In this document: positions 6,522-22,631 of the stretch, piece after piece | Numbering within the stretch: position 1 is the first letter of the stretch | How the letters are laid out: each line of letters starts with the position of its first letter | Source: Paracoccaceae bacterium | GTDB taxonomy: Bacteria; Pseudomonadota; Alphaproteobacteria; Rhodobacterales; Rhodobacteraceae | Direction: 5' to 3' | NCBI GenBank assembly: GCA_902602765.1 | Contig: CACKSH010000015.1 | Coordinates: 1-41,439 of the forward strand | Length of the DNA: 41,439 nt | The notes under the pieces: model-generated | What the model was told of the DNA's origin: nothing | What the model saw: the letters and a program-made list of their open reading frames with translations, nothing else | Databases searched by the model: none | Program-made: the position numbers and the translations under genes

Positions 6522-7170
6522 CAGTAAACAAAACGTCTTGAATTAATTGGTCTACTAAAGCGTCGATCCCAATTTTTCGTTTACAATCTGTGAGTAAAGT
6601 AGGACGATGATTCCGCACCTCAACAGCCTCTTGTTTAATCAAATCCACATTTGCGCCAACGTATGGTCCAATGTCAATTTTGTTAACAACAAGCAAATCG
6701 CTTCGGATGATTCCTGGTCCTTTCTTTCGCGGAATGTCATCACCTGCACCTGTATCAATGACAAACATCCAGTAGTCCACCAGGTCTAGAGAGAAGGTAG
6801 AAGCAAGATTGTCACCACCGCTTTCGATGAATATTACATCAAGTTCGGGGAAACTTGCATTAAGATTATCTGCAGCTGCAATATTTAGTGATGGATCTTC
6901 ACGAATAATCGTATGGGGGCAAGCTCCCGCTTCTACGGGTAAAACACGGTCTGGGGAGATTAGACCACTATTCTGTAATCTCTTTGCGTCCTCTTTGGTT
7001 ACAAGGTCGTTGGTCACAACTGCCACCTCGATACCACGAGAAACCAAGTCAGGAATTAAACACTCAATCAATGCTGTCTTTCCAGATCCAACTGGCCCAC
7101 CTATTCCTACACGCGCCGCAGACTTCTGTGACCCACTGGTTGTTTGAGTTCGTAGATCTTTATCGTTCAT
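6514..7170 (-). CDS. ureG: Urease accessory GTPase UreG
   Basis: A 218-residue SIMIBI-class GTPase that powers nickel insertion into urease. Seen: P-loop GPVGSGKT at 25-32, the nickel-binding Cys-Pro-His in [15 protein letters not shown], the switch-like [13 protein letters not shown], and the guanine-specificity NKID. Length is usual for UreG. There is no long N-terminal His-rich extension, so it probably does not store nickel. The start lies 10 bases after ureC, and the end overlaps ureD by 8 bases, showing tight translational linkage. Confidence 0.95.
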
Positions 7171-7180
7171 CCGGTCGCCC

Positions 7181-8893
7181 TCATCGGAACATATACAGTT
7201 GTGTTAATGGCAGTTTTTGGGATGGTTCACACCAAGCAAGATCACCATCGATAAATACATCGAAAGTCTGAGCGTCAACGCGGATATCTGGGCAAAGATC
7301 ATTATGTAACATGTCACTCTTTTTAAGCTGCCGCGTGCCACTTGCAGGTAGTAGAGATTTAGAAATATTAAGCTTGTCGGAAAGATTATCTTCAATCGCA
7401 GAGGGATGCACGAAGCACGCTGAGATTGCTTTCTTAGCTTCGCCAAATCCTCCCCATTGTGGGCGCATCTGTATTGGCTCACAGGTCATCAGCGAAGCTG
7501 CAGAGTCCCCCATCGCACCAAAGGCAATAAAGCCTCCCTTGACTACGATCTCAGGTTTGATCCCAAAAAAACCCGGCTTCCATAAAACTACGTCGGCCAT
7601 TTTTCCTTTTTCGAGTGAGCCCACATGCTGTTCAATGCCAAAACTTTTTGCTGCATTGATAGTGTATTTGGCTATGTAGCGCTTTATCCGCTCGTTATCA
7701 CCTTTCTTCGTATTTTCACTTGAAAGCCGCCCACGTTGGTCTTTCATTTTAGAAGCTAGCTGCCAAGTCCGAGTTATCACCTCATTAATCCGACCCATGC
7801 CCTGACTGTCAGAACCAAGCATCGAAATTGCACCCAAATCGTGCAGGATGTCTTCAGCCGCAATCGTTTGCGCCCGAATACGGCTTTCAGCGAATGCTAC
7901 ATCCTCAGGGATTGACGGGCTCAGATGGTGACAAACCATAGTCATATCAAGATGCTCATCAAAAGTATTTACCGTGAATGGATTCGTTGGGTTGGTAGAA
8001 GATGGAAGACAGTTCATTTCGCCTGCTACCCTAATAACGTCTGGAGCATGACCGCCGCCAGCACCTTCGGTATGATACATGTGGATTGTCCGGTTTGCGA
8101 TTGCTTCAAGAGTACTTTCGAGGAAACCGCTTTCATTAAGCGTGTCAGTATGTATCTGAACTTGAAAATCCAACTCGTCCGCCACGCTTAAACACGTATC
8201 GATTGCGGCGGGCATTGACCCCCAGTCCTCATGGATTTTCAACCCAACCGCTCCACCCTTTATTTGGTCATAGATTGAATTGGGCTTTGAGGTATTTCCT
8301 CGACCAAGAAATCCAAAATTCACAGGGAAACTCTCTGACGCCTGGATCATCTTGCCTACATTGAAAGCGCCACCACAGTCGATACCAACGGTAATCGGGC
8401 CTAATGAGCCCCCCATCAAGCTTGTGATACCCGAGGCGATAGCATGATCGCACAGCTGCGCACTGTCAAAATGTACGTGTACGTCGATGCCACCAGGAGT
8501 GGCTATTAATCCCTCAGCATCGCGAACAGTTGTTGCAACCCCACAAATTAGATCAGAATGTACCCCGTCCATTGTGCCTGGATTGCCGGCTTTACCAATC
8601 CCCACGATTTTACCGTCCTTTATCCCTATATCGCCCTTTACAATGCCTATTACTGGATCAATGACAGTAGCATTGCATAAGAGCATATCCAGCGCACCCA
8701 TAGCACTATCGTAGCCTGGAGTTAAACCCAGACCGTCGCGCAGTGTTTTTCCGCCACCATGCAGGCATTCATCTCCATGGGTAATGAAATCGTGTTCTAC
8801 TTCTGCAAAAAGGTTAGTATCACCTAACCTCACTGCATCTCCTTTAGTGGGGCCGTACATGTTCGCGTAATCTTTTCGTTTCATCTTACTCAT
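7181..8893 (-). CDS. ureC: Urease alpha subunit UreC
   Basis: The 570-residue catalytic subunit, which hydrolyses urea to ammonia and carbamate. All nickel-site residues are present: H139 and H141 (HVHFD), carbamylated K219 (GLKIHEDWG), H248, H274 and D362 (GSDSQGMG). The flap Cys-His is also intact ([14 protein letters not shown]321-H322). The start is ATG with GGGAG 7 bases upstream, only 2 bases after the fused gamma-beta gene. Nothing suggests inactivation, so the organism should make a functional Ni-urease if all accessory genes are expressed. Confidence 0.97.
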
Positions 8894-8895
8894 TA

Positions 8896-9588
8896 TTATG
8901 CTCCCTTGAATCCACGCGCCCGCGCGCGCTGCAATGCCTGACCCTTAATATCTTGACTACTGATCGGCCCATTTGTTAAATTATTTAAACCATAAAGCTC
9001 TTGAGTGCCGCCGAATTCAGTCAAAATTACTTCTTTGGCTTCGCCAGGTTCAAAACGTACGGCGGTGCCAGCGGGGATGTCTAGTCTCAAACCGAAAGCA
9101 GATGCTCTGTCAAAATCAAGTGCTTTATTAGTTTCGAAAAAATGGTAATGACTTCCAATCTGAACTGGACGGTCTCCAGTGTTTACTACTTTAATTGTAA
9201 CAGAGCGGCGACCGGCATTAATCTCGATCTCGCCTTCTTCACAGTCAAGTTCGCCAGGACTTACTCCATCAACTTTTTTCTTGCCGGGGCGGATTGGGTC
9301 ATGGACCGTAACCAGTTTGGTACCATCCGGAAAGGTACCTTCAACCTGGATCATTGAAATCAGGTCGCTTACACCTGGCAATACATCATCGGTGCTTAGT
9401 AGCGTTGATCCAAATGAGATTAAATCGGCAACGGACCGCCCCTCTCGCGCTCCCTCAAGAATTTCATCCGTTATGAAGGCAATAGCCTCAGGATGGTTCA
9501 GTTTCAGCCCCTTGGCTTTACGCTTTCGGGATAATTCGGCCGCGGTAAAAATCGTCAGCCGTTCCATTTCTGTAGGTGTTAGCAGCAT
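8896..9588 (-). CDS. ureAB: Fused urease gamma-beta subunit
   Basis: A 230-residue protein that joins the two small urease subunits. Residues 1 to about 100 are the gamma subunit ([21 protein letters not shown] start, [50 protein letters not shown]). Residues from about 110 to 230 are the beta subunit ([60 protein letters not shown]). There is no stop or frameshift between them. Most Proteobacteria have separate ureA and ureB; a natural fusion is known from Helicobacter and some other groups. It lies 19 bases after ureF and 2 bases before ureC. Confidence 0.95.
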
Positions 9589-9607
9589 ATATTACTCCTT
9601 CAGTTTA

Positions 9608-10294
9608 TCAATTCATAAACAAACGCATCTCGTCCATCTCGTGCATCATTGATGCAATTTCAATTTGTGGTGTGAAGCTATGCGCTTCTTCCGGTTCTAA
9701 GACTGGTTCTTGCAGGGCCGCAACAACGGCAGGAAGAAAAGCTGAATGAATACGCTGTGCGTCCGCATGACCTATCACCGAAAGCCGCACAGCGGCACTC
9801 AGTATCGACGTAACAAGACCATGTGCCGCCATGGACTGAGCCTGATAAGAATCAAAATTTAGCGCTCGCCAAAGTACTCCTTGTACAACAGGCACATGAC
9901 CATAAAGCCTACCTTTCGAAATACCAGCGCTTAGTTCCCTGGCTGTTTTAGTGCCCAACTTACAGTGCATTTGCAGCATTGCAGCACCCATCAGTTTCGA
10001 ACCTTGGCGTTGCTCAGCACTCAAGGATTGAACTTCTGTGAGCGTGTCAAGCCAAGATAGTCGATCAGGATCACTCCAGGATTGATGTGCATGCACTAAG
10101 ATAACACGATCTAAACTAGCCCATCTTGCGATCAGGTGCGCGTTCAAAAACGCTTGTACATCATCTGCTTTAGTAACCATTCCACGGTTAACTAGCGTTT
10201 CAAGCCCCCAACTAAAACTGACCGATCCACTTGGGAAGGCACTATCGCTGTGTTGCAGAAGCATCAACGGTATGATCTTATTATCTTCAGTCAT
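9608..10294 (-). CDS. ureF: Urease accessory protein UreF
   Basis: A 228-residue all-helical UreF, which joins UreD on the apoenzyme and acts as the checkpoint for UreG GTPase. Seen: the family N-terminal pattern LLQHSDSAFPSGSVSFSWGLE and the helix KADDVQAFLNAHL, plus the typical GRLYGHVPVVQGVLWRAL region. Its ATG overlaps the ureE stop by 8 bases. Placement of ureE and ureF before the structural genes departs from the usual alphaproteobacterial ureDABCEFG order. Confidence 0.9.
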   Translation of the reverse strand: MTEDNKIIPLMLLQHSDSAFPSGSVSFSWGLETLVNRGMVTKADDVQAFLNAHLIARWASLDRVILVHAHQSWSDPDRLSWLDTLTEVQSLSAEQRQGSKLMGAAMLQMHCKLGTKTARELSAGISKGRLYGHVPVVQGVLWRALNFDSYQAQSMAAHGLVTSILSAAVRLSVIGHADAQRIHSAFLPAVVAALQEPVLEPEEAHSFTPQIEIASMMHEMDEMRLFMN

Positions 10295-10739
10295 TCTCAG
10301 TAAGAGCTCTTATTTTACCAGTTTCAATGAGCAGTTCTAAGCGATCTAAATAGGTTTGCAGTGGGCCTTGCAAAGCTACTTTGAGCCTTTCACCTTCAAA
10401 TTCAACTTTCCAATGTAAGTTCCCTATGAAATACCCAACTTCGAGCGCTGCAGCATGATTTTGTGCCTCTAGTGAAAGCCATTTCTGTTGGGACAGACGC
10501 ACGACAATAGCTCCGTTGTCACTTATACTCAGCACCGCCCCATCAGAAAGCTGCTGGTCCCGATTGAGCACAATAACACACTCTGTGCCTTTGTCAGTCA
10601 TGGCTCTCATGCGCCTTCTAGAGGTGTCGTCCGCCGATATAGTTAGATATTCCACCTTTCCAGAGTGACTTAGATCGTGAAGTGCTGAATCAAACGGCTC
10701 ATCAGCTGCATACCCAAGTATCGAACTTAATATTTGCAT
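10287..10739 (-). CDS. ureE: Urease nickel metallochaperone UreE
   Basis: A 150-residue UreE, which brings nickel to the UreG complex. Seen: an N-terminal peptide-binding-like domain (residues 1-70) and a C-terminal metal-binding domain with the conserved dimer-interface His, H109, in YFIGNLHWK. The His-rich C-terminal tail present in some UreE proteins is absent, so it should bind few nickel ions. It is the first gene of the urease operon; the promoter should lie in 10740-10850. I saw no clear sigma-54 type promoter there. Confidence 0.88.
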   Translation of the reverse strand: MQILSSILGYAADEPFDSALHDLSHSGKVEYLTISADDTSRRRMRAMTDKGTECVIVLNRDQQLSDGAVLSISDNGAIVVRLSQQKWLSLEAQNHAAALEVGYFIGNLHWKVEFEGERLKVALQGPLQTYLDRLELLIETGKIRALTEND

Positions 10740-10974
10740 GTTATTTCAACCATTTGTTACTTTTAGAGACCTTCTAAAGTTGGAAATTCTGATAACCGCA
10801 ATACCGTGTTATCAGTCAACCGGCCATCTTAGCTTTTGATCTACTAGTTCCCTCTTGCCACTGTTGTACGCGTCATAACACAAAATTTACGCAAACCGCC
10901 AAACGCGAAGATGTACCGCTGACATCAAAAAACGGACAAAGATCGGAAATTTTGATGACATTTACACCACCACG

Positions 10975-11500
10975 TTAATCAGGAATACTAGCAATCCTTG
11001 TAACATCGGGTGACTCCAACCCTGCTGGTTCAATCGAGTTCAGGCCAGGTGCGGTTGAATCATCCATAACGTTGAAGTTAAAATCCAGATTCTGACCGTC
11101 CGTGCCCAGTCATGCTTTGTCAATAGCGTCCTTTACAGTTTCTTTAATTCCGCGGTCTAGCAGCTCATATTTTTGAAGGGAGCGTATACCCATTGCAGTA
11201 GCTAGGTCAATCCGACTTTTGAGTTAAGAGCGCTACGTAATTCCATATGGCTAATGTTCGCACTATCAAAGTTTGGTAAATCTAACAAACGCGAAACTGG
11301 CGAGAAATTAGTGTTTTAAACGACTCCTCAGTCTGAAGATGTATCAAGATGGCATTCAATCTGCACGTATTTGATTGTACTGTTTTTATGAAAATCAGAT
11401 AATGCTATCGATGCTAAATTTGTGGCAGAATGGTTACTGCCAGCAAAAACTAGTTCAACACCACCTTCAAGTATTTCTCCAAATACTGATATCAAAGTTC
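10975..11500 (-). pseudogene. Decayed coding remnant, family not recognised
   Basis: The minus strand carries protein-like sequence broken by several stops and a frameshift. In order: EILEGGVELVFAGSNHSATN, then stops, SRLLDLPNFDSANISHMELR with ALNSKVGL, then a shift into DLATAMGIRSLQKYELLDRG and IKETVKDAIDKA, an in-frame TGA, then LGTDGQNLDFNFNVMDDST ending in a TAA at 10975-10977. Composition and the way segments resume after each break look like a former gene, not chance frames. I cannot name the family. Confidence 0.5.
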
Positions 11501-11521
11501 ATGAAAACGCTTATCATTACC

Positions 11522-11571
11522 AGTGATAAAATATTAATGCCAGTGATGAAAAATTTTCAGTAGTGATGAAA
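11522..11571 (+). repeat. Three 20-bp-phased AGTGAT-A/G-AAA repeats
   Basis: AGTGATAAAA at 11522, AGTGATGAAA at 11542 and AGTGATGAAA at 11562 are spaced exactly 20 bases apart, close to two helical turns. The first also forms TTATCA-N7-TGATAA with the bases before it. They lie about 240-285 bases upstream of urtA. Phased repeats like these can be operator sites, but no regulator gene is next to them. Confidence 0.4.
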
Positions 11572-11655
11572 ATTTACAATCTGACCGCAGAAAGCGCATA
11601 AAAATTAATCAAAAATCTGGTAAATAGTAAGAAAGTGGGACAATATACATAGCAG

Positions 11656-11676
11656 AATCAATGTCAAACATTGATT
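11656..11676. promoter_or_regulatory. 8-bp inverted repeat upstream of urtA
   Basis: AATCAATG and CATTGATT form a perfect dyad around a 5-base centre (TCAAA), 130 bases before the urtA start. There is no T-run on either side, so it reads better as a protein-binding operator than as a terminator. The regulator is unknown. Confidence 0.35.
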
Positions 11677-11805
11677 AGGTGAGCGCAGGGTATTTAAAAC
11701 ACCCCAAAATAGACTTTTATAACTTAATCCGCTTCCAGCCAATAATGTGTAGTTTGTTATGATTGATTTGGCGGCTGCAAGAAATAAAATCCGAAAGGAA
11801 TAAAT

Positions 11806-13053
11806 ATGAAAAACAGAAGACAATTTTTGAAAGAATCCTCAGCTCTGGGTGCTGCTTCGTTTTTAGCTCCTTCTATATATGCTGGAACCGCTGCAGGCGC
11901 GAGCGAATTAGAAGTAGGCGTACTTTTCTCCCTGTCCGGAGGTTTGGCGATGATAGAAAAGTCACTATCAGATGCAACCCTTATGGCTATTGAGGAAATC
12001 AATGCTGCAGGTGGCGTCAATGGTATGATGATCAAGCCTATTTTGGAAGATGGTGCATCTGACCCAAAAACTTATAACGAAAAAGCTAGCAAACTGGTCA
12101 TCAGGGATAGAGTGCCGACTGTTTTTGGCTCGTATACTTCTGCTAGCCGGAAAGCGGTATTACCTGTTTTTGAAAAACGGAATAATATGTACTTTTATCC
12201 AACATACTATGAGGGGTATGAGTGTAGTAAAAATGTAGTTTACACAGGAGCTGTTCCCAATCAACAGCTGTCAAACTTCATTCCATGGATATTTAAAAAT
12301 CTAAACAAGAAAAAGTTTTTCATTGTTGGTTCAAACTATGTATATCCGCGAGAAATGGCAAAAGTTTGTAAGATTCTAATTGAACAAAACGGCGGTGAAA
12401 CTGTTGGGGATGAGTATTTAGAGTTGGGCCACTCTGAGTGGGGTGCAATGGTATCGAAAATTAAGAATTCCGGCTGTGACGTTGTTTTGTCGAACGTTGT
12501 AGGTGGGTCTGTAATTTCATTTTACAGAGAATGGAAAAACCAAGGTATGACGCATGATCAGTTGCCAATTTGTGCCTCAGTTACGTCTGAACTTGAAGTC
12601 TCTGCGATGGGAGCAGAGTTTGCTGTAGGCAGTTATGCGTCATTTCCTTACTTTCAGGCTATTGATACAGACGCCAATAACTCGTTTGTAGAGCGGTACA
12701 GAAAGTTTGTTAATGACCCCATGGCGCCTACGCACCATGCTTTAGAATCAAGTTACTTTCAGGTGTATTTGTGGAAACAAGCCGTTGAGAAGGCGGGTGA
12801 AGCGACACCCGATGCAATACGTGAAGGTATAAAGGGACAGGTATTCGATGCTCCCAATGGGCGCGTTACGGTTGATCCTGACAATCTTCACACGTATCTA
12901 ACCCCTCGTATTTGCCAATATAAAGAAGATGGCCAAGGGACTATCGTGGACGAATACTCTGAGCCTCTTCAGCCACTTCCTTATTCTGCGTACGGTGAGA
13001 CGTCAGATGACATGTATTGCAAAGAGTCTGGGCTAGATACATCAAAACTTTAA
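11806..13053 (+). CDS. urtA: Urea/short-chain amide ABC transporter substrate-binding protein
   Basis: A 415-residue periplasmic binding protein of the UrtA/AmiC/FmdD group. The N-terminus has a twin-arginine motif (NRRQFLK) and a hydrophobic stretch ending near TAAGA, so it is probably exported folded by the Tat system. Family features: VGVLFSLSGGLAMIEKSL, FGSYTSASRKAVLPVFE, YFYPTYYEGYECSKN, YTGAVPNQQ and YVYPREMAK. The C-terminus (RVTVDPDNLHTYLTPRI) looks like amide-binding relatives as well as UrtA, so the ligand could be urea, acetamide/formamide, or both. The start has an AGGA ribosome site. It leads a five-gene transporter operon and is followed by a GC-rich hairpin. Confidence 0.88.
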   Translation: MKNRRQFLKESSALGAASFLAPSIYAGTAAGASELEVGVLFSLSGGLAMIEKSLSDATLMAIEEINAAGGVNGMMIKPILEDGASDPKTYNEKASKLVIRDRVPTVFGSYTSASRKAVLPVFEKRNNMYFYPTYYEGYECSKNVVYTGAVPNQQLSNFIPWIFKNLNKKKFFIVGSNYVYPREMAKVCKILIEQNGGETVGDEYLELGHSEWGAMVSKIKNSGCDVVLSNVVGGSVISFYREWKNQGMTHDQLPICASVTSELEVSAMGAEFAVGSYASFPYFQAIDTDANNSFVERYRKFVNDPMAPTHHALESSYFQVYLWKQAVEKAGEATPDAIREGIKGQVFDAPNGRVTVDPDNLHTYLTPRICQYKEDGQGTIVDEYSEPLQPLPYSAYGETSDDMYCKESGLDTSKL

Positions 13054-13062
13054 CCTTTTAGT

Positions 13063-13084
13063 GGGGCGGGCAATTGCTCGCCCC
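13063..13084 (+). promoter_or_regulatory. GC-rich hairpin between urtA and urtB
   Basis: A 9-bp stem with one G-T pair (GGGGCGGGC with GCTCGCCCC) and a 4-base AATT loop starts 10 bases after the urtA stop. Only three Ts follow, so it is not a full rho-independent terminator. Such structures after a binding-protein gene usually stabilise its mRNA or partly stop transcription, giving more binding protein than permease. Confidence 0.6.
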
Positions 13085-13099
13085 TTTATGGTGCATAGA

Positions 13100-13993
13100 A
13101 TGGCAAATATCTTATTTATCGGCTTATCTCTATCTTCGATATTATTATTAATCGCATTAGGTTTGTCGATTACCTATGGGGCTATGGGCGTAATTAATAT
13201 GGCCCACGGCGAGTTAGTAATGATCGGAGCCTACACAGCAGTTTTATCAGGTTTATATTTAAATCTAAATCTTTTCCTTGCTTTGCCACTGGCATTTTTA
13301 GTCTCTGCGGGGGTGGGATTAGCAGTAGAAAGGGTAATAATCCGGCAATTATATGGACGAATAATCGATACGTTATTGGCGACTTGGGGTGTGGCTATAT
13401 TGCTGCAGCAGTTGATACGATTAGAGTTTGGCCTCAGTTTTTTTGGTATCCACGTGGATGGTTTAGGTCCGGGATTTCAAAGTTTTCCGATACCGGCCTT
13501 TTTGAGTGAAAATTTTGACATTTTGGGTTTTACTGTGCAACCTTACAGAAGCTTCATAATCGTGCTTACAATTGCTCTAACTTTTCTTACTTGGTTCTTG
13601 ATGTATAGAACTTCACTGGGTACTCAGGTTCGTGCGATCATGAGAAACCCGCAAATGGCCGCAGCTTGTGGGATAGATGTCAATCGGATATCCGCATGGA
13701 CATTCGCATATGGTTCAGGGTTGGCAGGAGTAGCGGGCGTACTATTGGCAGGATTTAAGGCCGTTCTTCCTAACATGGGCGAATCTGTCGTTGTGGATGG
13801 CTTTTTGGTAGTAGTCGTTGGCGGGGTAGGAAGTTTATTTGGAACGCTATTATCTGCTGCCGTGCTAGGGCAAATTAATGGTGTATTTGCGATTCTTACA
13901 AATGATATCGTTGCACGAGCAATTGTGTTTGGGGTCGTTATTTTCCTCATTCTTTTAAGACCTAATGGGTTATTTGGATTCAAATCACGGTGA
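13100..13993 (+). CDS. urtB: Urea/amide ABC transporter permease UrtB
   Basis: A LivH-type inner-membrane permease of 297 residues with about eight hydrophobic segments. It opens with the family signature LGLSITYGAMGVINMAHGE and has the cytoplasmic coupling loop RAIMRNPQMAAACGIDVNR followed by AGVAGVLLA. A GTG at 13061 would add 13 residues but lies inside the intergenic hairpin, so I chose the ATG at 13100, which gives the usual short N-terminus. The long periplasmic N-terminal domain seen in some UrtB proteins is absent. The stop overlaps the next gene. Confidence 0.88.
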   Translation: MANILFIGLSLSSILLLIALGLSITYGAMGVINMAHGELVMIGAYTAVLSGLYLNLNLFLALPLAFLVSAGVGLAVERVIIRQLYGRIIDTLLATWGVAILLQQLIRLEFGLSFFGIHVDGLGPGFQSFPIPAFLSENFDILGFTVQPYRSFIIVLTIALTFLTWFLMYRTSLGTQVRAIMRNPQMAAACGIDVNRISAWTFAYGSGLAGVAGVLLAGFKAVLPNMGESVVVDGFLVVVVGGVGSLFGTLLSAAVLGQINGVFAILTNDIVARAIVFGVVIFLILLRPNGLFGFKSR

Positions 13994-15129
13994 AACTAAT
14001 GATTGAAAATCGTTCTCTTGCTCAAAAGCTTGATTGGGCTGTCTATATTACATTTTTTGTGGTGGTCCTCTGTCTCCCATTGCTTACGGACGATGTCTTT
14101 TGGCTGAACAGAATTTCAAAATTTTTGGTCTTTGGTCTACTAGGCTTAGCCATTGCCCTGAGTTGGGGATATGCCGGTGTATTAAATCTTGGTCAGGGGC
14201 TTTTTTTTGGTCTTGGCGCTTATATGTTTGCAATGTCTTTGAAATTAAAAAGTGGTACAAGTTTGCAGCAAGGCTCTGATAAACCGGTTCCGGATTTTAT
14301 GGTTTGGAATGCTGAACCTGGATCACCGACGGAGTTGTGCTGTATTGTACCCGGCTCATGGCTTTGGCTTCCATTTCAGTCTCAGACTTTTGGAATGATA
14401 ATGGCCGTTGCTCTGCCTATCCTTGTGGCTTTCGTAGTTGGTTCAGCAATATTTAGACTTCGCGTTTCAGGCGTCTATGTAGCGATAATAACCTTGGCTT
14501 TGGTTTTGTTAGTTCGCCTGTTGATTATCGACGCGCAACCAATAACAAATGGGTTTAATGGGTTGACTGATCTTGGATGGTTAAATCTGTTTGGAGTCGA
14601 ATTTGACCCATATATGTATGAAACCTACTACCTAGTTGCAGTCTCATGTTGTGTAATTATGCTTGCAGCGCGATGGTTGGTTAGTACGCGCGCTGGCCTT
14701 ATACTACAGTCTACTAGGGATGATGCAAATAGATCCCGTTATTTGGGCTACGATGTAGCTGCTTACCAGATCTTCTTTTTCGTAGTCTCTGCCGCGATTG
14801 CTGGCTTTGCAGGGATGCTTTATGTTGTGGCAGCCGAGTTCGCTTCTCCAACTTTTTTAGACATTTCGTTTTCTATTTCAATGGTGGTTTGGGCTGCAGT
14901 TGGAGGCAGGAGTTCACTTATTGGAGCCGTGATAGGAGCAGTTTTAATAAACTCGATTGAGGCTTCAGTAAGTGAAACTGAAATTTTTAAAGAGGCATGG
15001 AAACTGATTATAGGCGTTATTTTTATCTTTGTAGTATTGCTCTTACCTCGGGGTATTGCTGGGGTAGCTCGCGATTTTGCGCGTTGGTTAGAAGATAGTT
15101 ACCTTCAGTCTACATCTAAGAGAGGTTGA
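13990..15129 (+). CDS. urtC: Urea/amide ABC transporter permease UrtC
   Basis: A 379-residue LivM-type permease that pairs with UrtB to form the membrane channel. Seen: multiple hydrophobic segments, the family motif LGLAIALSWGYAGVLNLGQGLFFG split over two helices, and the coupling helix RDDANRSRYLGYDV. It starts with GTG overlapping the urtB stop; an ATG 9 bases later, with GGTGA just before it, is an equally good start. The long loop around residues 80-120 is typical of UrtC. Confidence 0.9.
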   Translation: MKLMIENRSLAQKLDWAVYITFFVVVLCLPLLTDDVFWLNRISKFLVFGLLGLAIALSWGYAGVLNLGQGLFFGLGAYMFAMSLKLKSGTSLQQGSDKPVPDFMVWNAEPGSPTELCCIVPGSWLWLPFQSQTFGMIMAVALPILVAFVVGSAIFRLRVSGVYVAIITLALVLLVRLLIIDAQPITNGFNGLTDLGWLNLFGVEFDPYMYETYYLVAVSCCVIMLAARWLVSTRAGLILQSTRDDANRSRYLGYDVAAYQIFFFVVSAAIAGFAGMLYVVAAEFASPTFLDISFSISMVVWAAVGGRSSLIGAVIGAVLINSIEASVSETEIFKEAWKLIIGVIFIFVVLLLPRGIAGVARDFARWLEDSYLQSTSKRG

Positions 15130-15131
15130 AC

Positions 15132-15878
15132 ATGAGTTTTGCATTAACTGTAGATGGCCTGACCGTAGATTTTAACGGCTTTAAAGCTGTTGATAATTTC
15201 ACAACCACAATTGAAATGGGGGAGTTAAGGGTAATACTAGGTCCAAATGGCGCCGGAAAGACGACCTTGATGGATCTGATAAGCGGAAAAACCACCTCCA
15301 CTAGTGGGGAAGTAAAGCTTTTTGGGCGAGAGATCACCAGGCTAAGCGAACATCAAATTGCGAGAGCTGGTATTGGACGGAAGTTTCAAATACCGAGTAT
15401 TTTCAGAGATCTTTCGGTAATACAGAACCTCGAGGTTTCTGCCAGTGGTGAGCCGTCTGTCTTCAAAAACCTTAAATATTCTATCACACGAGAGGAGAAG
15501 CAGAAGATAGAAGAAGTAATTGAGCTAACAGATTTATCTGATGTTTTAAAATCATCAGCCGGCGACTTGTCTCATGGTCAAATGCAATGGTTGGAATTGG
15601 GCATGCTGATTACTCAAGATGCAAAGGTAATTCTGCTGGATGAGCCAACAGCCGGAATGACAAAGCAAGAAACCATGAAAACAGCCGATATTATAAAAAA
15701 ATTAAAAGGAAAACATACTATACTTGTTGTGGAACACGATATGGCTTTTGTACGAGATATTGCGGAACGAATTACCGTAATGCACCTTGGCAAACTGCTA
15801 GCAGAGGGCGATATCGATACGATTGAGAAAGACGAGGCAGTAAGAGAAGCATATCTCGGATCAGGGGGTATTCATTAA
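15132..15878 (+). CDS. urtD: Urea/amide ABC transporter ATPase UrtD
   Basis: A 248-residue ABC ATPase. Walker A GPNGAGKT is at 37-44, Walker B is VILLDEPTAGMT, and the signature is LSHGQMQWLELGM, in which His replaces the usual Gly; this LSHGQ form is characteristic of UrtD. The ATG at 15132 is preceded by GAGG with 6-base spacing and follows the urtC stop by 2 bases; an upstream TTG is less likely. It works with UrtE as the mixed ATPase pair at the cytoplasmic face of UrtBC. Confidence 0.93.
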   Translation: MSFALTVDGLTVDFNGFKAVDNFTTTIEMGELRVILGPNGAGKTTLMDLISGKTTSTSGEVKLFGREITRLSEHQIARAGIGRKFQIPSIFRDLSVIQNLEVSASGEPSVFKNLKYSITREEKQKIEEVIELTDLSDVLKSSAGDLSHGQMQWLELGMLITQDAKVILLDEPTAGMTKQETMKTADIIKKLKGKHTILVVEHDMAFVRDIAERITVMHLGKLLAEGDIDTIEKDEAVREAYLGSGGIH

Positions 15879-16570
15879 TGCTAGATGTTCAAAACTTGAA
15901 TAGTTTCTATGGCCGTAGCAAAGCGATTCAAGATCTTTCGATTAAAGTTTTAGACGGGGCAGTTTTTGCAATTTTAGGTAGAAATGGGGTTGGAAAAACA
16001 ACGCTTCTTAGAACAATTCTGGGTCTCACCGACAAATGTGAGGGCTCTATAAAACTTAATGGTACTGAAATTACTGGCAAACCTACTTTTGAAAGAGCCA
16101 GGGCGGGAGTTGCCTATGTCCCTCAGGGGAGGATGATCATTCCAGATTTTTCCATAAAGGATAATATTTTGATGGGAGGTTTTGCATCTTCTAAAGGACG
16201 AAAAATTCCTGATCTTGTGGCGGAGCTTTTTCCATATCTTATGGAAAATCTAGAGCGGCCTGGTGGTGTTTTGTCAGGAGGCCAACAGCAGCAGTTAGCT
16301 ATTGCTCGTGCTCTCGCCTCTGATCCCAAGTTATTACTACTGGATGAACCAACGGAAGGCATCCAACCAAATATTGTAGAACAAATTGAAGAATGCATAA
16401 CGCGTCTTAATAGGGAATTGAAATTAACCATCGTGTTGGTGGAACAAAATGTGGATTTTGCTAGAAAAGCTGCATCACATTTTGCAATGATCGAAAATGG
16501 TACGTGCAAGGTCGATGGCAAAATTAAAGCACTTACTGCGAAAATTGTCTCACAGTACATGACAATATAA
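15878..16570 (+). CDS. urtE: Urea/amide ABC transporter ATPase UrtE
   Basis: A 230-residue ABC ATPase. Walker A GRNGVGKT is at 34-41, the signature is LSGGQQQQLAIARAL, and Walker B runs into LLLLDEPTEGIQPNIV, the TEGIQP form being typical of UrtE. Its ATG shares a base with the urtD stop. Together with UrtD it completes a five-part high-affinity transporter. Confidence 0.93.
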   Translation: MLDVQNLNSFYGRSKAIQDLSIKVLDGAVFAILGRNGVGKTTLLRTILGLTDKCEGSIKLNGTEITGKPTFERARAGVAYVPQGRMIIPDFSIKDNILMGGFASSKGRKIPDLVAELFPYLMENLERPGGVLSGGQQQQLAIARALASDPKLLLLDEPTEGIQPNIVEQIEECITRLNRELKLTIVLVEQNVDFARKAASHFAMIENGTCKVDGKIKALTAKIVSQYMTI

Positions 16571-16875
16571 TGAAAATACACGGTAAAGTATCAGATACTG
16601 CCAAGAGACCTTCTGGCGGCCTTGTACGAAAACTAGAGTATAAGCACGCAGTTGATACCATTCGTTTGAAAAATGATCATCTTTCTGGTGTGCTTTTTAC
16701 TTTAAAAACTATTTTTTTTAAACCTATTCGTATTTCGTTGCATAGATCGTTAAAATTAGTTGATGATGACATAATTTTAGAAAAAATAGTCTGGCTATAT
16801 TTTAAAATTTGCGCAAAAGTCTTTACCAGTATTGCGCGTAACAGAATCCACTTGGGCTTTGGCTCGCGAGGGTAG
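16570..16875 (+). CDS. Possible small ORF between urtE and amiE
   Basis: A 101-codon frame whose ATG overlaps the urtE stop (TAATGA arrangement), so it could be translated by coupling. The product is basic, with a hydrophobic middle (LYFKICAKVF), and has no motif I recognise. There is no independent ribosome site and the later codons look random, so it may be a chance frame in the urtE-amiE gap. Confidence 0.25.
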   Translation: MKIHGKVSDTAKRPSGGLVRKLEYKHAVDTIRLKNDHLSGVLFTLKTIFFKPIRISLHRSLKLVDDDIILEKIVWLYFKICAKVFTSIARNRIHLGFGSRG

Positions 16876-16930
16876 TACGGGACAGGTCCCGAAAGTAAGA
16901 AGAAAGTAGCTTAAAGAGAAAGGAAAATCA

Positions 16931-17971
16931 ATGTATCACGGAGACATAGGTAGTAGTAATGACACGGTAGGCGTGGCAGTTGTAAATTATAAAATGCCGA
17001 GATTGCATACTAAAGCGGAGGTGCTTGAGAATGCAAAAAACATCGCAAATATGTTGAAAGGGATGAAGCGTGGCTTGCCGGGGATGGACCTTGTAATCTT
17101 TCCTGAATATTCCACACAAGGTATAATGTATGATGAAGCAGAGATGTACGAAACAGCATCTGCAATACCAGGAGATGAAACGGAAATCTTTGCTGCAGCA
17201 TGTCGCGAAGCTAACGTTTGGGGTGTGTTTTCATTAACCGGTGAAAGACACGAACAACATCCAAATAAGGCACCGTATAACACCTTAATATTAATGAATA
17301 ATGAAGGTGAAATCGTGCAAAAATATAGGAAGATTATGCCATGGGTCCCAATTGAAGGTTGGTATCCAGGTAACTGCACATACGTTTCTGATGGCCCAAA
17401 AGGTTTGAAAATAAGTCTTATCATATGTGACGATGGTAACTATCCAGAGATTTGGCGCGATTGTGCAATGAAAGGCGCCGAATTAATTGTTCGATGTCAG
17501 GGATATATGTATCCAGCTAAGGAACAGCAAATTGTAATGGCGAAGGCTATGGCTTGGGCCAATAACAGCTATGTCGCTGTTGCGAATGCCGCAGGTTTTG
17601 ATGGAGTGTATTCATACTTTGGCCATTCCGCTATTGTAGGTTTTGATGGACGTACATTAGGAGAGTGCGCAGAAGAAGAGAATGGAATTCAGTATGCACA
17701 ACTTTCTGTTTCCGGAATACGTGATGCGCGAAGAAACGCACAGAGTAACAATCACTTATTTAAATTGGTGCATAGAGGATATACTGGTATGATAAATTCT
17801 GGTGACGGTGATAAAGGTCTAGCAGAATGTCCATACGAATTCTACAAAAAATGGGCTGAAGATCCCGAGGGGACACGGGAGATGGTTGAGGCTATGACGC
17901 GACCCACCGTCGGTGTTGATGAATGCCCAATTGACGGGGTTCCAAATCAAGAAGATATAAAACATAGCTAG
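16931..17971 (+). CDS. amiE: Aliphatic amidase
   Basis: A 346-residue nitrilase-superfamily amidase, the same length as Pseudomonas aeruginosa AmiE and very similar throughout. It hydrolyses short aliphatic amides such as acetamide and propionamide to the carboxylate and ammonia in the cytoplasm. The catalytic triad is in the same positions: E59 (FPEYSTQG), K134 (YRKIMPW) and C166 ([12 protein letters not shown]). The start [17 protein letters not shown] is diagnostic for aliphatic amidase; formamidase AmiF is a close alternative. It has an AGGAAA ribosome site and follows the transporter on the same strand. A strong hairpin separates it from the next gene. Confidence 0.93.
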
Positions 17972-17978
17972 AATGGAG

Positions 17979-18005
17979 GCCGAGTAGCGATTTTAGCTAC
18001 TCGGC
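17979..18005 (+). promoter_or_regulatory. Strong hairpin between amiE and the cbbQ-like gene
   Basis: A perfect 10-bp stem (GCCGAGTAGC with GCTACTCGGC) with a 7-base loop starts 7 bases after the amiE stop and ends 7 bases before the next ATG. No T-run follows, so it is not a standard terminator. It occupies the place where the cbbQ-like ribosome site should be, which suggests control of translation or protection of the amiE mRNA end. Confidence 0.6.
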
Positions 18006-18012
18006 ATAAATA

Positions 18013-18810
18013 ATGGATATAGCTGAATTTTTTATCACTCAAAAACCAAATTATATTAACGTGGGTGACGAGACAGATTTATTCGAAGCAGCGTTCACAA
18101 ATAAAATACCAGTAATGCTAAAGGGCCCTACTGGTTGTGGCAAAACTAGGTTTGTGGAGTATATGGCTTGGTTTCTCAAAAAACCTTTAGTTACAGTTTC
18201 ATGCCATGAGGATATGACAGCCGCAGATTTAGTGGGCAGGTATTTGCTAAATAATGATGGTACTTTTTGGCAGGATGGGCCCCTCACAATCGCTGCACGA
18301 AATGGTGCTATTTGCTATCTAGACGAGGTGGTTGAGGCGAGGCAGGATACTACAGTTGTAATACATTCGATTACTGACGATCGAAGGGTTCTGCCTATTG
18401 AAAAAAAAGGTGAACTGTTAAAAGCTGATGAGGATTTTCACCTCGTTATATCTTATAACCCTGGCTATCAGAGTGTCGTCAAAGATCTCAAAGAGTCTAC
18501 CAAGCAGAGATTTTGTGCACTTGATTTTGAATATCCAGCCAATGAAGTGGAAACCAACATAGTTTGCTCTGAGGCAGATGTTGAACTCGACATTGCATCT
18601 TCACTCGTGAAGATAGCCGATAAATCAAGGAATCTGAAAGGTGCAGGTTTGAACGAAGGAGTTTCAACCAGGATGCTTATCCACGCGGCTAAATTGAGTA
18701 AAAATGGTCTAAGCCTACTTTCTGCGTGCGAGGTAGCGTTGGTAAATGCGATAACCGATGATCAGGAAGTACGGAAAGCTCTCAGAACCACTATATCCGC
18801 CTGTATTTAA
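18013..18810 (+). CDS. MoxR-type AAA+ ATPase, CbbQ/NirQ/NorQ family
   Basis: A 265-residue AAA+ ATPase. Walker A GPTGCGKT is at 38-45, Walker B CYLDE at 101-105, followed by the family motifs SITDDRRVLPIEKKGE, VISYNPGYQSVVKDLK and STKQRF. Known CbbQ and NorQ proteins remodel or load metal cofactors into Rubisco or nitric oxide reductase together with a VWA partner. Neither of those targets is in this window; the neighbours are an aliphatic amidase, a VWA protein and a CoA-transferase. The gene has no visible ribosome site because the preceding hairpin fills that space. Family is firm; the client protein is unknown. Confidence 0.9.
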   Translation: MDIAEFFITQKPNYINVGDETDLFEAAFTNKIPVMLKGPTGCGKTRFVEYMAWFLKKPLVTVSCHEDMTAADLVGRYLLNNDGTFWQDGPLTIAARNGAICYLDEVVEARQDTTVVIHSITDDRRVLPIEKKGELLKADEDFHLVISYNPGYQSVVKDLKESTKQRFCALDFEYPANEVETNIVCSEADVELDIASSLVKIADKSRNLKGAGLNEGVSTRMLIHAAKLSKNGLSLLSACEVALVNAITDDQEVRKALRTTISACI

Positions 18811-18852
18811 TTTTGGTCAACTATCAAAATAGAACAGGATCTGGAGACCTTA

Positions 18853-21033
18853 GTGGAAATTGAGATGTCACTACAGCATAAAAATCGTATCAAATACGCT
18901 GGATATGGTCGTAATGTTTTTAAGGCGTATGAGGACGCAGCTGATAAAATTACAATTCAAATTGGTTCAGCGTTTCTTCAAGAGTTTACTGATACAGTCT
19001 CATACTTATGTATAAAAGGTGGCAAAGCTGATGCGGTATTATTTTGCAAGTGCGCTGTAGAACTACGCTTTAAGAATTTAACTGAAAACATGTTTTTTGA
19101 GTGGCAGAGAAAGATTAGCGATGTTGCGAAAATTTCTCCAAGGGTGTGCAAAGTATTGCTCGAAAATAACTCTACAACCACAGGCAGTTTAGATTTAGCT
19201 GGTTGGCTGGATTGGGTTGCAACAGGTCTTAGATATGGTGCGAACAGTACCGACAATATGGCAGACTATTTTTCGTTATCAAACCAGGTCAGTTTAAGCT
19301 TTTTTAATGAACATTCTGGCACACTAATGTTTACTAACATAAAGGAGCAGCTTAAATTAGAATTAAAATCATTATTCGATATTTCGCCTGAGTTAATTTC
19401 AAATACAGTAAAATTCCAAAGCGCAGCAAAACAGAGATCTTCTTTCACAGATCGTTTTTTTCTTTTACCTCCAACTTATCTTGGATCTAGTAAACGCGCG
19501 CTTAAGACTTATCAGGCAGCTGTTTTTCATATGGGGGCACATCTGCGTTATGGGAAAAAATCTTTTGAAGTTGGTCAGTTGAAGCCAATGCAGGTTGCCA
19601 TTGTATCAATAATCGAAGATGCAAGAGTTGAGATGCTTGCTGGCCTGGAGCTACCCGGGCTTAATAGGTTATGGACTGAATTTCATGATGCACCCTCTTC
19701 TGGAATAAATACGGCACAAAGAATGTTTGAAAGATTGTCTAGAGCGTTGATTGATCCCAATTTCCATACAGATGACGGCTGGGCCGAGAAGGGTAAAAGG
19801 ATGTTTTATCAGGCGCGGGATAGTTGGGATGATCCTCGGATTAGTCGTGTAATTGGAAACATCTTGGGTAACGAGCTTGGTCAACTTCGCGTTCAATTTA
19901 ACGCTAAGGATTATGTTCCAAACCCCGTTTATAGGGATGACAATAATGGACTTTGGGCCTTTCCTGAGGCACCGTCAGAAGATATGCAAGCACACGATTT
20001 AAACGTTGATTTAGTTGAGGCACGCAGGCCAATCAGAGGCAATCTAAAAAATTCTAATAAGCAAGAAGAAACCTCAGAAAATGAGAACGAAAATTATGGT
20101 ATTGCGAAACCATCAATCGTAGATGAAAATTCGGGACGTTTAATTGTAAAATTACCAGAATTTGATTACTTAGCGAACAAACTACGAAAAGACTGGGTCA
20201 GCATTCTTGAGTACAGAAATATACTTGGCTCTTCAAAATACTTAGATTATATCGAAAGCGAGTATTCTGAAGTAATACAAAAGTCCGAACGATTATTCAG
20301 ATCATTATCTTTGGGTTCTAGTAGAAAGCTAAAGAAACAGGCTGAGGGCGAAAACCTAGATCTGGACGCATCAGTCGACGCATTGATTTCGATCAGGACT
20401 AAAACAGCTCCAGAACAAAATATTTTTGAAAATAGATCTAAGCCATCGCGTAGTCTAGCCATCCATCTTTTACTTGATACTTCGGAGTCAACTCGCGCAT
20501 TAGTTCCAAATTCTTCAAAATCGATACTAGAATTGGAGAGGGAGGCAGCTGCTATCTTGTTGAAATCATTTAAAAAGACTCGCGATCCATTTGCTATAAC
20601 AGGTTTTTCATCAAATGGACGGCATGATGTGAGGATTCAAACCGTTAAACAGTTTGATGAAGAATTTGGTATAAGCAATGAAATGAGCCTAGCTGGGTTA
20701 GCGTCTGGATATTCAACTCGAATGGGTGCGGCACTCAGATATTGTGGGAATTCTTTCAAAAAAATACTTACAGACAGGAAATTAATCCTTTTAGTAACAG
20801 ATGGTGAACCTTCGGACATTGATGTGAATGACGCAAAGTACCTAACATGTGATACTAAACGAGCGGTGAGTGAGTTAAAAAACGTGCAAGTGGACGTTTT
20901 CTGCGTCGCTCTAGGGAAACAAGCAGGTAACCACGCAGAGCAAATCTTTGGAAAATCAGGATGCGTATCGATAAATAATTTATCAAGTCTGCCAGCAAAA
21001 CTCACAAATTTATATGTTAAATTGACATCATAG
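18853..21033 (+). CDS. VWA-domain protein, CbbO/NorD-like partner of the AAA+ ATPase
   Basis: A 726-residue protein with a C-terminal von Willebrand A domain. Its metal-ion site is intact: D542-x-S544-x-S546 (LDTSEST) and D650 in LLVTDGEPSD. The middle has the NorD/CbbO-type stretch SIIEDARVE (252-260), and a charged low-complexity linker lies at about 400-425. It starts with GTG, chosen because GGAG lies 6 bases upstream. In this family the VWA protein bridges the AAA+ hexamer to its substrate, so this pair with the gene before it should form one machine. The target here is unknown. Confidence 0.85.
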   Translation: MEIEMSLQHKNRIKYAGYGRNVFKAYEDAADKITIQIGSAFLQEFTDTVSYLCIKGGKADAVLFCKCAVELRFKNLTENMFFEWQRKISDVAKISPRVCKVLLENNSTTTGSLDLAGWLDWVATGLRYGANSTDNMADYFSLSNQVSLSFFNEHSGTLMFTNIKEQLKLELKSLFDISPELISNTVKFQSAAKQRSSFTDRFFLLPPTYLGSSKRALKTYQAAVFHMGAHLRYGKKSFEVGQLKPMQVAIVSIIEDARVEMLAGLELPGLNRLWTEFHDAPSSGINTAQRMFERLSRALIDPNFHTDDGWAEKGKRMFYQARDSWDDPRISRVIGNILGNELGQLRVQFNAKDYVPNPVYRDDNNGLWAFPEAPSEDMQAHDLNVDLVEARRPIRGNLKNSNKQEETSENENENYGIAKPSIVDENSGRLIVKLPEFDYLANKLRKDWVSILEYRNILGSSKYLDYIESEYSEVIQKSERLFRSLSLGSSRKLKKQAEGENLDLDASVDALISIRTKTAPEQNIFENRSKPSRSLAIHLLLDTSESTRALVPNSSKSILELEREAAAILLKSFKKTRDPFAITGFSSNGRHDVRIQTVKQFDEEFGISNEMSLAGLASGYSTRMGAALRYCGNSFKKILTDRKLILLVTDGEPSDIDVNDAKYLTCDTKRAVSELKNVQVDVFCVALGKQAGNHAEQIFGKSGCVSINNLSSLPAKLTNLYVKLTS

Positions 21034-21083
21034 AAAGAATATATTTTTTGTGACCCAGTAACGAGCAAAGAGGTTTTGAAAAA

Positions 21084-22631
21084 GTGAACAATAAATTGAT
21101 TTCAGCTGCTGAGGCAGTTAAGAAAATTAAAAGTTCAGATACAATAACAATCGCGGGATTTGTTGGAACTGGCGTTCCTGACGAACTCCTAAATGCGCTG
21201 AAGGATCGGTTTCTCATTGAACAAACTCCCACTAATCTTACACTACTTTTTTCTGCTGGACCAGGAGACGGTGATGTAAGAGGGATAAATCTTTTAGCAT
21301 TCCCAGAGCTGCTGAAGAGAGTAGTCGGAGGCCATTTTGGCTTGATACCGAAGATCTCTGAATTGGCACTTAATGATGAGATTGAAGCATATAATATTCC
21401 TCAGGGCATAATTAGCCATCTTTATCGCGATATTGCTTCTGGGAAACCAGGCGTATTCACTAAAGTTGGCTTAGGAACTTTTGCTGATCCACGTATTGAA
21501 GGAGGAAAGGTAAATAAATCATCGAAAGAAAATTTAATTGAACTGGTAAACATCAAGGAAGAAGAGTATCTTTTTGTACCAACTTTTCCTATAAATATTG
21601 GATTATTGCGAGGGAGTGTAGCTGATAAAAATGGGTCCATATCAATGCGCAATGAGGCCTTGATAATTGATAATTTGGCACAAGCCATGGCAGTAAAGAA
21701 TTCAGGCGGTATTGTAATATTTCAAGTTGGACAAGTTATTCAAGAGCTTTTACCGAGTCGCCAAGTTGATATACCTTCAGGTCTGGTGGATTTTTTAGTA
21801 GTTGGTAAAGCAGATAATCACATGCAAACATATGCGTGCCAGTATTCGAATTACTTAGATGGATCCAAACGCAAAATTGACTGGGACAATTCACAGCATG
21901 CGCTTGACCAGAAAAAAATAATTGCCAGACGGGCTTTTTTGGAATTAACAGGCTCAAAACAAGTAGTGAATCTTGGTATTGGCACACCAGAAGTTATTGC
22001 TGAAGTAGCAAAAGAAGAAGGTCAAATTGACAGATTAATTTTAACTACGGAAGCCGGAGTGCATGGTGGTCTGCCTTCTGGCGGCCTTAGTTTTGGAACC
22101 GCTGTCAACACAGATGCTGTTATAAGTCAGAACCAGCAGTTTGACTTTTATGATGGTGGTGGAATACATACTGCTTTTCTGGGAATGGCACAAATTGACA
22201 GAATGGGTAACGTAAACGTTTCGAGATTTTCTGGTAGACTTGCGGGAGCGGGAGGCTTCGTAAACATTAGCAGCTCTTCTAAAAATATTGTTTTTTGCGG
22301 AACTTTTACTTCGGGTGGATTACTTCTGCAGGTGGAAGATGAAAAGCTAAATATTTTAAATGAAGGTAAAATAATAAAATTTAAAAATAAAGTTGATCAG
22401 ATAACCTTCAGTGGTGAACGTGCCGAGACAAGTGGGCAATCAGTAAAATATGTAACTGAGAGGGCAGTATTCGAACTTAAAGAGGGTAAAATTCACCTAT
22501 CTGAGATAGCGCCCGGTATTGATTTAGAAAAACAAATTTTGGCATTTATGGACTTTGAGCCTTTCATTGACAAAGTTTCAATTATGGATTCGAGGGTTTT
22601 CTCATCGACCTTTATGATGCCTGCTGATTAG
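21084..22631 (+). CDS. Acyl-CoA:acetate/propionate CoA-transferase, fused alpha-beta
   Basis: A 515-residue family I CoA-transferase with both halves in one chain, like propionate CoA-transferase (Pct/YdiF). The N-terminal half has GFVGTGVPDELL, and the C-terminal half has VVNLGIGTPEVIA and the nucleophilic glutamate E323 in TTEAGVHGGLPSGG. It starts with GTG after an AGAGG ribosome site. It moves CoA between short carboxylates. As the last gene of the amidase arm it could turn the acetate or propionate released from amides into the CoA thioester; that link is inferred from context. Confidence 0.85.
   Translation: MNNKLISAAEAVKKIKSSDTITIAGFVGTGVPDELLNALKDRFLIEQTPTNLTLLFSAGPGDGDVRGINLLAFPELLKRVVGGHFGLIPKISELALNDEIEAYNIPQGIISHLYRDIASGKPGVFTKVGLGTFADPRIEGGKVNKSSKENLIELVNIKEEEYLFVPTFPINIGLLRGSVADKNGSISMRNEALIIDNLAQAMAVKNSGGIVIFQVGQVIQELLPSRQVDIPSGLVDFLVVGKADNHMQTYACQYSNYLDGSKRKIDWDNSQHALDQKKIIARRAFLELTGSKQVVNLGIGTPEVIAEVAKEEGQIDRLILTTEAGVHGGLPSGGLSFGTAVNTDAVISQNQQFDFYDGGGIHTAFLGMAQIDRMGNVNVSRFSGRLAGAGGFVNISSSSKNIVFCGTFTSGGLLLQVEDEKLNILNEGKIIKFKNKVDQITFSGERAETSGQSVKYVTERAVFELKEGKIHLSEIAPGIDLEKQILAFMDFEPFIDKVSIMDSRVFSSTFMMPAD

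Follow-up and report, generated by a model that had tools for sequence, protein, structure and literature searches.

Positions 11806 to 22631 of contig CACKSH010000015.1 (41,439 nucleotides, hereafter the window), from the Paracoccaceae bacterium assembly GCA_902602765.1, carry nine + strand genes for a UrtABCDE-type transporter, the aliphatic amidase AmiE, a pair of AAA and VWA proteins and a coenzyme A (CoA)-transferase. They probably constitute an operon for small amides, in which the AAA/VWA pair would act as a remodeller of the CbbQO type with AmiE as its client, recognised through a short C-terminal tag. The gene content recurs in other genomes, most of these pairs form a clade of their own, the transporter binding protein has amide-type pocket residues and the tag co-occurs with the pair. 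An initial annotation of the same DNA had offered no role for the pair, which is the most interesting part of the locus.

AmiE (16931-17971, + strand) scored 714 bits against the NF009802 model, whose cut-off is 427 bits, and matched solved aliphatic amidases. Residues Glu59, Lys134 and Cys166, which we take to be its triad, were invariant in 44 aligned rows. The last two codons (17963-17968, +) encode His-Ser, a putative C-terminal recognition tag that reads His-Arg in most of the relatives bearing the pair. Searching the genome collection with AmiE returned at least 589 relatives, and the best 80 loci were kept, a set biased towards AmiE with the pair. Among 116 AmiE scored by script, 79 had both the pair and a penultimate His (a His-X end), 36 had neither and one was discordant; with three further AmiE scored by hand, the counts were 82, 36 and 1 (n = 119). 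The tails beside the 80 script-scored pairs ended in HR (72), HK (3), HS (2, the window and its sister), HA, HG and AD (one each). The background was low, a penultimate His being found in 21 of 1012 other predicted open reading frames (ORFs) longer than 150 amino acids in the first 80 loci. The UrtA, UrtB, UrtC, UrtE, UreC and UreAB proteins of the loci never had a His-X end, and UrtD had one in 20 of 106 cases. As controls, the two Rubisco tails seen next to CbbQO read -QHR and -SHR at their ends; next to NorQD, none of six NorB-like tails (two from annotation, four assigned by position) had such a His. When the AmiE core was searched for residues tracking the pair, one weak column was found, the signal sitting in the tail.

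Since the tail pattern emerged from the inspection of many features, a phylum sample taken after it had been seen is the fairer test. This sample comprised 334 genomes, 25 of them with AmiE, and contributed 22 new loci. A His-X end was present in 6/6 of the new AmiE with the pair and in 0/16 of those without it; over the whole sample of 25 AmiE the figures were 7/7 vs 0/18 (Fisher test, 2.1e-6). Seven plasmid loci (L223-L228 and L251), likewise fetched after the pattern had been seen, agreed with it, L224 by hand scoring. Using all branches of either AmiE tree, built with the tail excluded, we obtained eight concordant independent pairs, none opposite and one without difference. Alternative scorings of the hand-scored loci left seven or eight concordant pairs and never an opposite one.

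An AmiB-type ATPase was found nearby in 13 of the 36 judged AmiE without the pair, and neither partner was seen in the other 23. The 14 AmiE near an AmiB-type ATPase had tails mostly of the -KEK or -KER type, with a penultimate His in none. The presence of Clp-like AmiB beside AmiE with differing tails suggests two kinds of ATPase partner for amidases. Such AmiE were seen at L223, L225, L227 and phylum-sample loci, the Pseudomonadota tails having mostly KEK or KER near the end; Peribacillus and others also have AmiB-like genes. The discordant AmiE, at L161, has an AmiB-type ATPase beside it and an AmiB-type tail. The CbbQ/VWA pair of that locus groups apart and follows a tubulin-like protein ending in -HA, and the same arrangement was found in an Agrobacterium plasmid. 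Tubulin-like proteins with this ending lie directly 5' of the CbbQ/VWA pair at L161 (6283-7977) and L177 (52-1746), with a Pfam match at L177 only and below the cut-off. The tubulin-like protein is thus a possible third type of tagged client. Genes annotated as tubulin-like also lie near amiE in Rhodococcus plasmids. At L224, on a plasmid of Acidithiobacillus caldus, the AmiE tail is -RHK, and insertion sequences and a VWA gene in pieces lie next to the amidase gene, no AAA gene being seen; here the tag has been kept and the pair is apparently decaying.

The AAA protein (18013-18810, +) is a MoxR AAA+ ATPase of the CbbQ/NorQ type, with AAA_5 and CbbQ_C (PF08406, 98.6 bits) domains, and its nearest solved relatives are CbbQ and then NorQ. 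Its partner (18853-21033, +) is of the CbbO/NorD type with a C-terminal VWA domain, a part that matches NorD among solved proteins. The best fold matches of its model (pLDDT, predicted local distance difference test, of 83) were NorD and then the Rea1 metal ion-dependent adhesion site (MIDAS). It contains a full MIDAS motif (DxSxS..T..D), with D542, S544, S546, T622 and D650 invariant in 54 sequences. In the trees, most amidase-linked pairs, that of the window included, formed a clade apart from CbbQO and NorQD, with support values in the Shimodaira-Hasegawa-like approximate likelihood ratio test (SH-aLRT) of 99 (67 VWA rows) and 96 (69 AAA rows). One Thioclava genome has two pairs, one beside Rubisco and one beside amiE. 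In view of the neighbouring genes and the trees, we rejected the reading of the window pair as itself a Rubisco CbbQO or a NorQD. In the host's own incomplete genome, CbbQ_C was found at this locus only.

The initial annotation had described nine genes on one strand with overlapping or nearly touching ends, and the ORF coordinates and family searches bore this out for all nine + strand ORFs. UrtB and UrtC overlap by 4 bases, UrtC and UrtD by 4 and UrtD and UrtE by 1, and the gaps 3' of the AmiE, AAA and VWA genes measure 41, 42 and 50 bases. The sole large gap of the run is the 360 bases between UrtE and AmiE. A 101-amino-acid ORF (16570-16875) is probably not a gene, since it matched no family and, among the 80 loci, only the sister (69%). 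When compared with the sister locus L032, ten genes (ureC, the five urt genes, amiE, AAA, VWA and CoA-transferase) were under purifying selection, with a rough ratio of nonsynonymous to synonymous change of 0.00-0.13; the two AmiE proteins were identical despite a synonymous difference of 21%.

Conservation was assessed in 67 well-covered loci, namely those of the 80 in which amiE is preceded by 5.5 kb or more and followed by 4 kb or more. The pair was present in 59/67, an ANTAR regulator in 51/67 and a urease with fused gamma and beta subunits (fused-type urease, described below for the window) in 15/67, and 18/67 had a strictly contiguous one-strand urtABCDE-amiE-AAA-VWA order. In several loci lacking urtBC (e.g., L049, L054, L069 and L091), the pair is still found next to amiE. 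In a class sample of 385 genomes, AmiE was found in 5 at the cut-off used, with the pair in 2 of the 5. The recurrence of the core in other genomes indicates an arrangement beyond chance.

The tag has a precedent in Rubisco. Activation by CbbQO requires an HK/R motif at the C terminus of the Rubisco large subunit, according to mutagenesis, and is abolished when one residue is removed from or added to that end; the last residue is replaceable, and for the penultimate His aromatics serve as partial substitutes (PMC4660213). The motif is absent from carboxysomal Rubiscos that occur without cbbQO, and which of two CbbQO systems acts is switched by three C-terminal residues (PMC8718961). Under the published rule the penultimate His alone is strict, and the -HS end in the window is compatible with it. 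AmiE is unrelated to Rubisco, so the best reading of their common tag is as an address used by one type of machine.

Based on these observations, we infer physical recognition and remodelling of AmiE by the pair, as well as the substrates of the operon. The transporter, with its amide-type pocket, would import acetamide-like substrates and perhaps urea, AmiE would cleave the amide to ammonia and an acid, and the CoA-transferase would activate the acid. The pair would grip AmiE via the His-X tag, with the VWA metal site probably holding an acidic surface residue, and would use ATP to distort the amidase, restoring or maintaining its activity. Our guess is that the relieved state may be a dead-end acyl- or carbamoyl-enzyme. 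Aliphatic amidase is slowly inactivated by urea and cyanate via a carbamoyl-enzyme. A repair role is attractive because this state would correspond to Rubisco inhibited by sugar phosphates, and the operon would also handle urea. Only tentatively do we extend this to an amidase activase: a machine of the CbbQO type would have passed from Rubisco to an enzyme class unrelated to it via the same His-X tag, and it would release AmiE from a dead-end complex, probably the urea-derived carbamoyl-enzyme, a penultimate His marking the clients of CbbQO-like machines (Rubisco, AmiE and the tubulin-like protein). If this were true, release of the carbamoyl-enzyme would explain the company that the pair keeps with urease and a urea-open transporter.

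Several points weigh against recognition of AmiE by the pair and against the repair role. The inactivation by urea and cyanate enters the argument as general background, and literature searches found no statement on urea inhibition of amidase. Three loci were scored by hand because the AAA gene lies beyond the contig end (L073), the pair is on another contig (L084) or the pair is fragmentary (L224); if L224 is scored as lacking the pair, it becomes a second exception. The tail count was made without five truncated loci (L111, L099, L051, L039 and L085). With well-supported branches only, the independent pairs came to 5-0 with one tie in the DNA tree (p 0.0625) and 2-0 with one tie in the protein tree, which leaves room for shared ancestry. 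Amidase-linked rows outside the main clade numbered 10/76 for VWA and 9/77 for AAA, three of the latter lying beside CbbQ. The 36 judged AmiE without the pair indicate that it is not needed for basic AmiE activity in general. The AmiE model was poor (pLDDT 70) and its low-confidence tail proves little. The window tag is -HS and not -HR, and -NR ends occur in some carboxysomal Rubiscos that do have cbbQO, His being preferred in vitro and not universal (PMC8718961).

Two other roles for the pair were weighed. It is possible, if doubtful, that the pair acts as a chaperone in the assembly or folding of oligomeric AmiE, like NorQD maturing the nitric oxide reductase cNOR, and that the tag is the grip point of such a chaperone and not of a repair activase. 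Among solved homologues of the VWA protein NorQD is the nearest, and it puts iron into a new enzyme (PMC13036017), and a plasmid paper of 2026 proposed assembly or activation for such a pair (PMC13209695). However, the tag matches the repair machine CbbQO and not the NorB-like tails seen, and the 36 judged AmiE loci manage without the pair. To our knowledge, AmiE also has no metal cofactor to be inserted. A client elsewhere in the locus, with the pair inserting nickel into urease or acting on the transporter while the tail of AmiE marks a lineage, appears improbable. The pair is often near urease and urt genes, and tail and pair are both partly clade-bound. Yet the pair is far more frequent than the fused urease (59/67 vs 15/67 well-covered loci) and stays beside amiE in several loci where urtBC are missing; two Aminobacter urt-urease stretches lack it, and none of the other proteins of the loci that were inspected carries a His-X end, UrtD excepted. 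We favour AmiE as the client of a CbbQO-type remodeller.

The transporter comprises a UrtA-like periplasmic binding protein (11806-13053, +), the UrtB (13061-13993, +) and UrtC (13990-15129, +) permeases and the UrtD (15126-15878, +) and UrtE (15878-16570, +) ABC ATPases, in the five-subunit urt order. UrtB, UrtC, UrtD and UrtE all exceeded their NCBIfam cut-offs (TIGR03409, TIGR03408, TIGR03411 and TIGR03410, respectively), and the UrtA-like protein missed that of urea UrtA, TIGR03407 (408 vs 492.75 bits). In Prochlorococcus UrtA, mutants of W120, S122, Q144, Y190 and N246 had urea binding abolished or strongly lowered (PMC10392092). The corresponding residues are Y, S, Y, Y and V in the window protein and Y, S, P, Y and V in AmiC, the amide sensor of P. 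aeruginosa; the full pocket strings are YSYTYEYYVV and YSYTPEYYVT, respectively. Pocket types went with neighbouring genes among the relatives. The WSYVQEYYNS pocket (19 rows, 14 genes) is of the urea type, two of these rows showing an ordinary urease within their stretch, and WSYTF/MEYWVS came with FmdA in 14 of the 16 rows having a wide stretch. The YSYTLEYYVT pocket goes with AmiE, the window type YSYTYEYYVV with AmiE whether a fused urease is present or not, and YTWTWEYFVT with the fused urease alone (three rows). A tree of 163 rows was built with the pocket columns excluded, after 22 rows (4-kb loci lacking context, plus four paralogues that are unrelated) had been dropped. It placed the window protein within a 120-row clade that includes AmiC (1pea; SH-aLRT 100); outside it fell the family's urea-type UrtA, the urea-bound UrtA of known structure (8hic) and another solved protein whose pocket is the same (8tg1). 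As the initial annotation had allowed, the binding protein is not a urea-only UrtA, tree and pocket agreeing on this, so that the firm grouping with urea-only UrtA which would have counted against that annotation was not observed. The locus is a caution that a gene with a urea-transporter name can belong to an amide transporter, and it offers pocket residues by which the two can be distinguished.

The proposal of a transporter common to urease and amidase was found plausible, not proven. In its specific form, it holds that the Tyr-144 pocket is bispecific for urea and amides, Leu going with the amidase only, Trp or Phe with urease or formamidase and Gln with urea-only UrtA, and we consider this quite possible, if a little short of probable. 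The nearest sister group of the window protein consists of three transporters beside the fused urease alone, and the Tyr-144 pocket is unlike both pure types. Over sensors and transporters, residue 144 tracked the neighbouring enzymes, being other than Leu in 42/48 with the fused urease or FmdA and Leu in 80/92 with AmiE alone. By genome, the fused-type urease accompanied 11/16 Tyr-144, 3/27 Leu-144 and 0/6 Phe-144 transporters. Against this, no fused urease was found in the other five Tyr-144 genomes (three Thioclava, L043 and L076), three Leu-144 genomes have one, and the link amounts to about three independent contrasts with a median p of 0.25, so that residue 144 was rejected as a proven specificity switch. 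An ordinary urea transporter for the adjoining urease, with amiE as a passenger, is very unlikely. It would suit the UrtBCDE scores over the urea-transporter cut-offs, the adjoining urease and the sister transporters that serve urease alone, but the UrtA-like protein is below its cut-off, has Tyr for Q144, Val for N246 and Tyr for W120 (PMC10392092) and groups with AmiC and amidase-linked proteins at full support. On the cut-off, pocket residues and tree, a canonical urea UrtA was rejected. The AmiC-like sensors (e.g., L196 948-2102 and L080 3101) vary at position 144 too: Phe occurs in the three rows with urease alone, Leu in the majority of amidase operons and Gln in two Bradyrhizobium loci having both enzymes.

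The last gene of the run (21084-22631, +) encodes a family I CoA-transferase resembling YdiF/FadX. It has the CoA_trans domain (PF01144), scored 373.5 bits, below the FadX cut-off of 750 (NF052271), and has YdiF as its best solved relative. Its likely role would be to turn acetate or propionate into acyl-CoA. Some of the 80 loci are short, and the enzyme was found in only one of them, the sister L032. In Rhizobium etli an acetate-CoA ligase gene lies directly 3' of the VWA gene, a gammaproteobacterial metagenome-assembled genome (MAG) has one at the same distance, an Agrobacterium plasmid has an apparent remnant and Aestuarium has a family III CoA-transferase two genes after the VWA gene. Acid activation looks optional in the group, as unrelated enzymes occupy this slot in a few relatives. 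Hence, the complete route from external amide to ammonia and acyl-CoA put forward in the initial annotation holds for uptake and hydrolysis, the acyl-CoA step being likely here and optional elsewhere; likewise, its gene order recurs as a urtABCDE-amiE-AAA-VWA core, without conservation of the CoA-transferase (1/80 loci). A gene of the dimethylsulfoniopropionate (DMSP) lyase family (1236-1922, -; PF16867, E 1.5e-19) lies about 20 kb from the CoA-transferase. The product of DMSP lyase is acrylate, which could likewise need CoA activation.

The urease genes (5646-10739, -) are divergent from the urt genes and upstream of them. They encode the gamma and beta subunits fused in one protein (8896-9588, -; PF00547 and PF00699), the alpha subunit UreC (7181-8893, -), which by comparison with other UreC belongs to a second, probably acquired urease clade, and the accessory proteins UreG and UreD (5646-7170, -), which match those annotated in L196; ureE and ureF were named by position alone. 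Fused-type UreC proteins from different amide-operon loci are 72-77% alike, and their likeness to the remaining ureases seen is 49-59%. The window UreC reads SDSQGMG where an aligned solved urease has SDSQAMG (Ala to Gly), in what is presumably a conserved active-site stretch. Two Aminobacter plasmids carry the fused-type urease with its own AmiC/AmiR pair and urt genes, in stretches without amiE. The host genome measures 1.85 Mb (82% complete), and its sister, a Red Sea MAG, carries the same locus. Within the genus, this urease occurs in 2/16 genomes, as does the binding protein, and a different urease (UreC 53-54% alike) occurs in 10/16, the sister having both. Taken together, these findings suggest that the amide operon and the adjoining urease are an acquired island.

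Regulatory features were also searched for. There was no ANTAR match in the window, and with one Thioclava AmiC and AmiR as queries no decayed copy was found in 10740-11805. Nor was an AmiC found elsewhere in the 82% complete host genome, where the only other UrtA-like protein is 23% alike. Sigma-54-type promoters gave 26 matches in the window vs 22.4 expected, promoters and terminators were in no excess over shuffles, and the RNA family search of the window returned tRNA only. At 25639-27471 (+) lies a 610-amino-acid ORF which, by eye, has an adenylate-cyclase-like start and repeats.

The locus can be compared with several known systems. The Pseudomonas-type amidase operon, which we take to comprise AmiE, the AmiB ATPase, the AmiS channel and the AmiC/AmiR antiterminator, likewise combines AmiE with an ATPase partner and amide uptake, and relatives of the window carry AmiC/AmiR; the window differs in having an ABC transporter and no AmiC/AmiR. 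The AmiB-type partners seen are Clp/Hsp100-like (AAA_2 and ClpB_D2-small), with a CbbQ-type VWA partner at L161 only, and the AmiE tails differ. The fmdDEF genes of Methylophilus encode a comparable Urt-like transporter beside formamidase. A urt-like amide cluster of Bradyrhizobium japonicum, blr0968-blr0973, has been known since 2010 (PMC3098086). Both types share with the window a UrtABCDE-like transporter adjoining an amidase or formamidase, for which amide transport has been inferred. Unlike them, the window has its binding protein in the AmiC clade and not in the FmdA-linked clade, and no FmdA was seen in it; the Bradyrhizobium loci of the urt-amide kind seen here mostly lack the AAA/VWA pair.

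Closest in gene content is a plasmid amiE-amiC-amiR-CbbQ-NorD cluster of Pseudomonas veronii Yu15, for which assembly or activation was suggested in 2026; the available portion of that account contains no tag, survey or Rubisco parallel (PMC13209695). In the openly licensed literature, among top-ranked papers, we found no statement of the AmiE tag, the tail survey or the link to CbbQO recognition. NorQ/NorD, which matures nitric oxide reductase, shares the AAA/VWA architecture, and NorD is the best fold match; it differs in its untagged NorB-like tails and its separate clade, the window AAA protein being nearer to CbbQ. With the CbbQO Rubisco activase, the window shares the CbbQ_C AAA protein, the VWA partner with a full MIDAS, the enzyme-Q-O gene order and a His-X tag on the client, as AmiE would be. 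It differs in that the pair stands beside the gene for an amidase of the nitrilase superfamily and not beside Rubisco, and in that most such pairs, the window pair included, form their own clade. If the proposal is true, MoxR/VWA repair of inhibited active sites would be a transferable module with a readable address label. The tag would have been gained and lost together with a CbbQ/O-like pair on an enzyme unrelated to Rubisco, and a simple rule would be at hand for finding the clients of orphan MoxR/VWA pairs.

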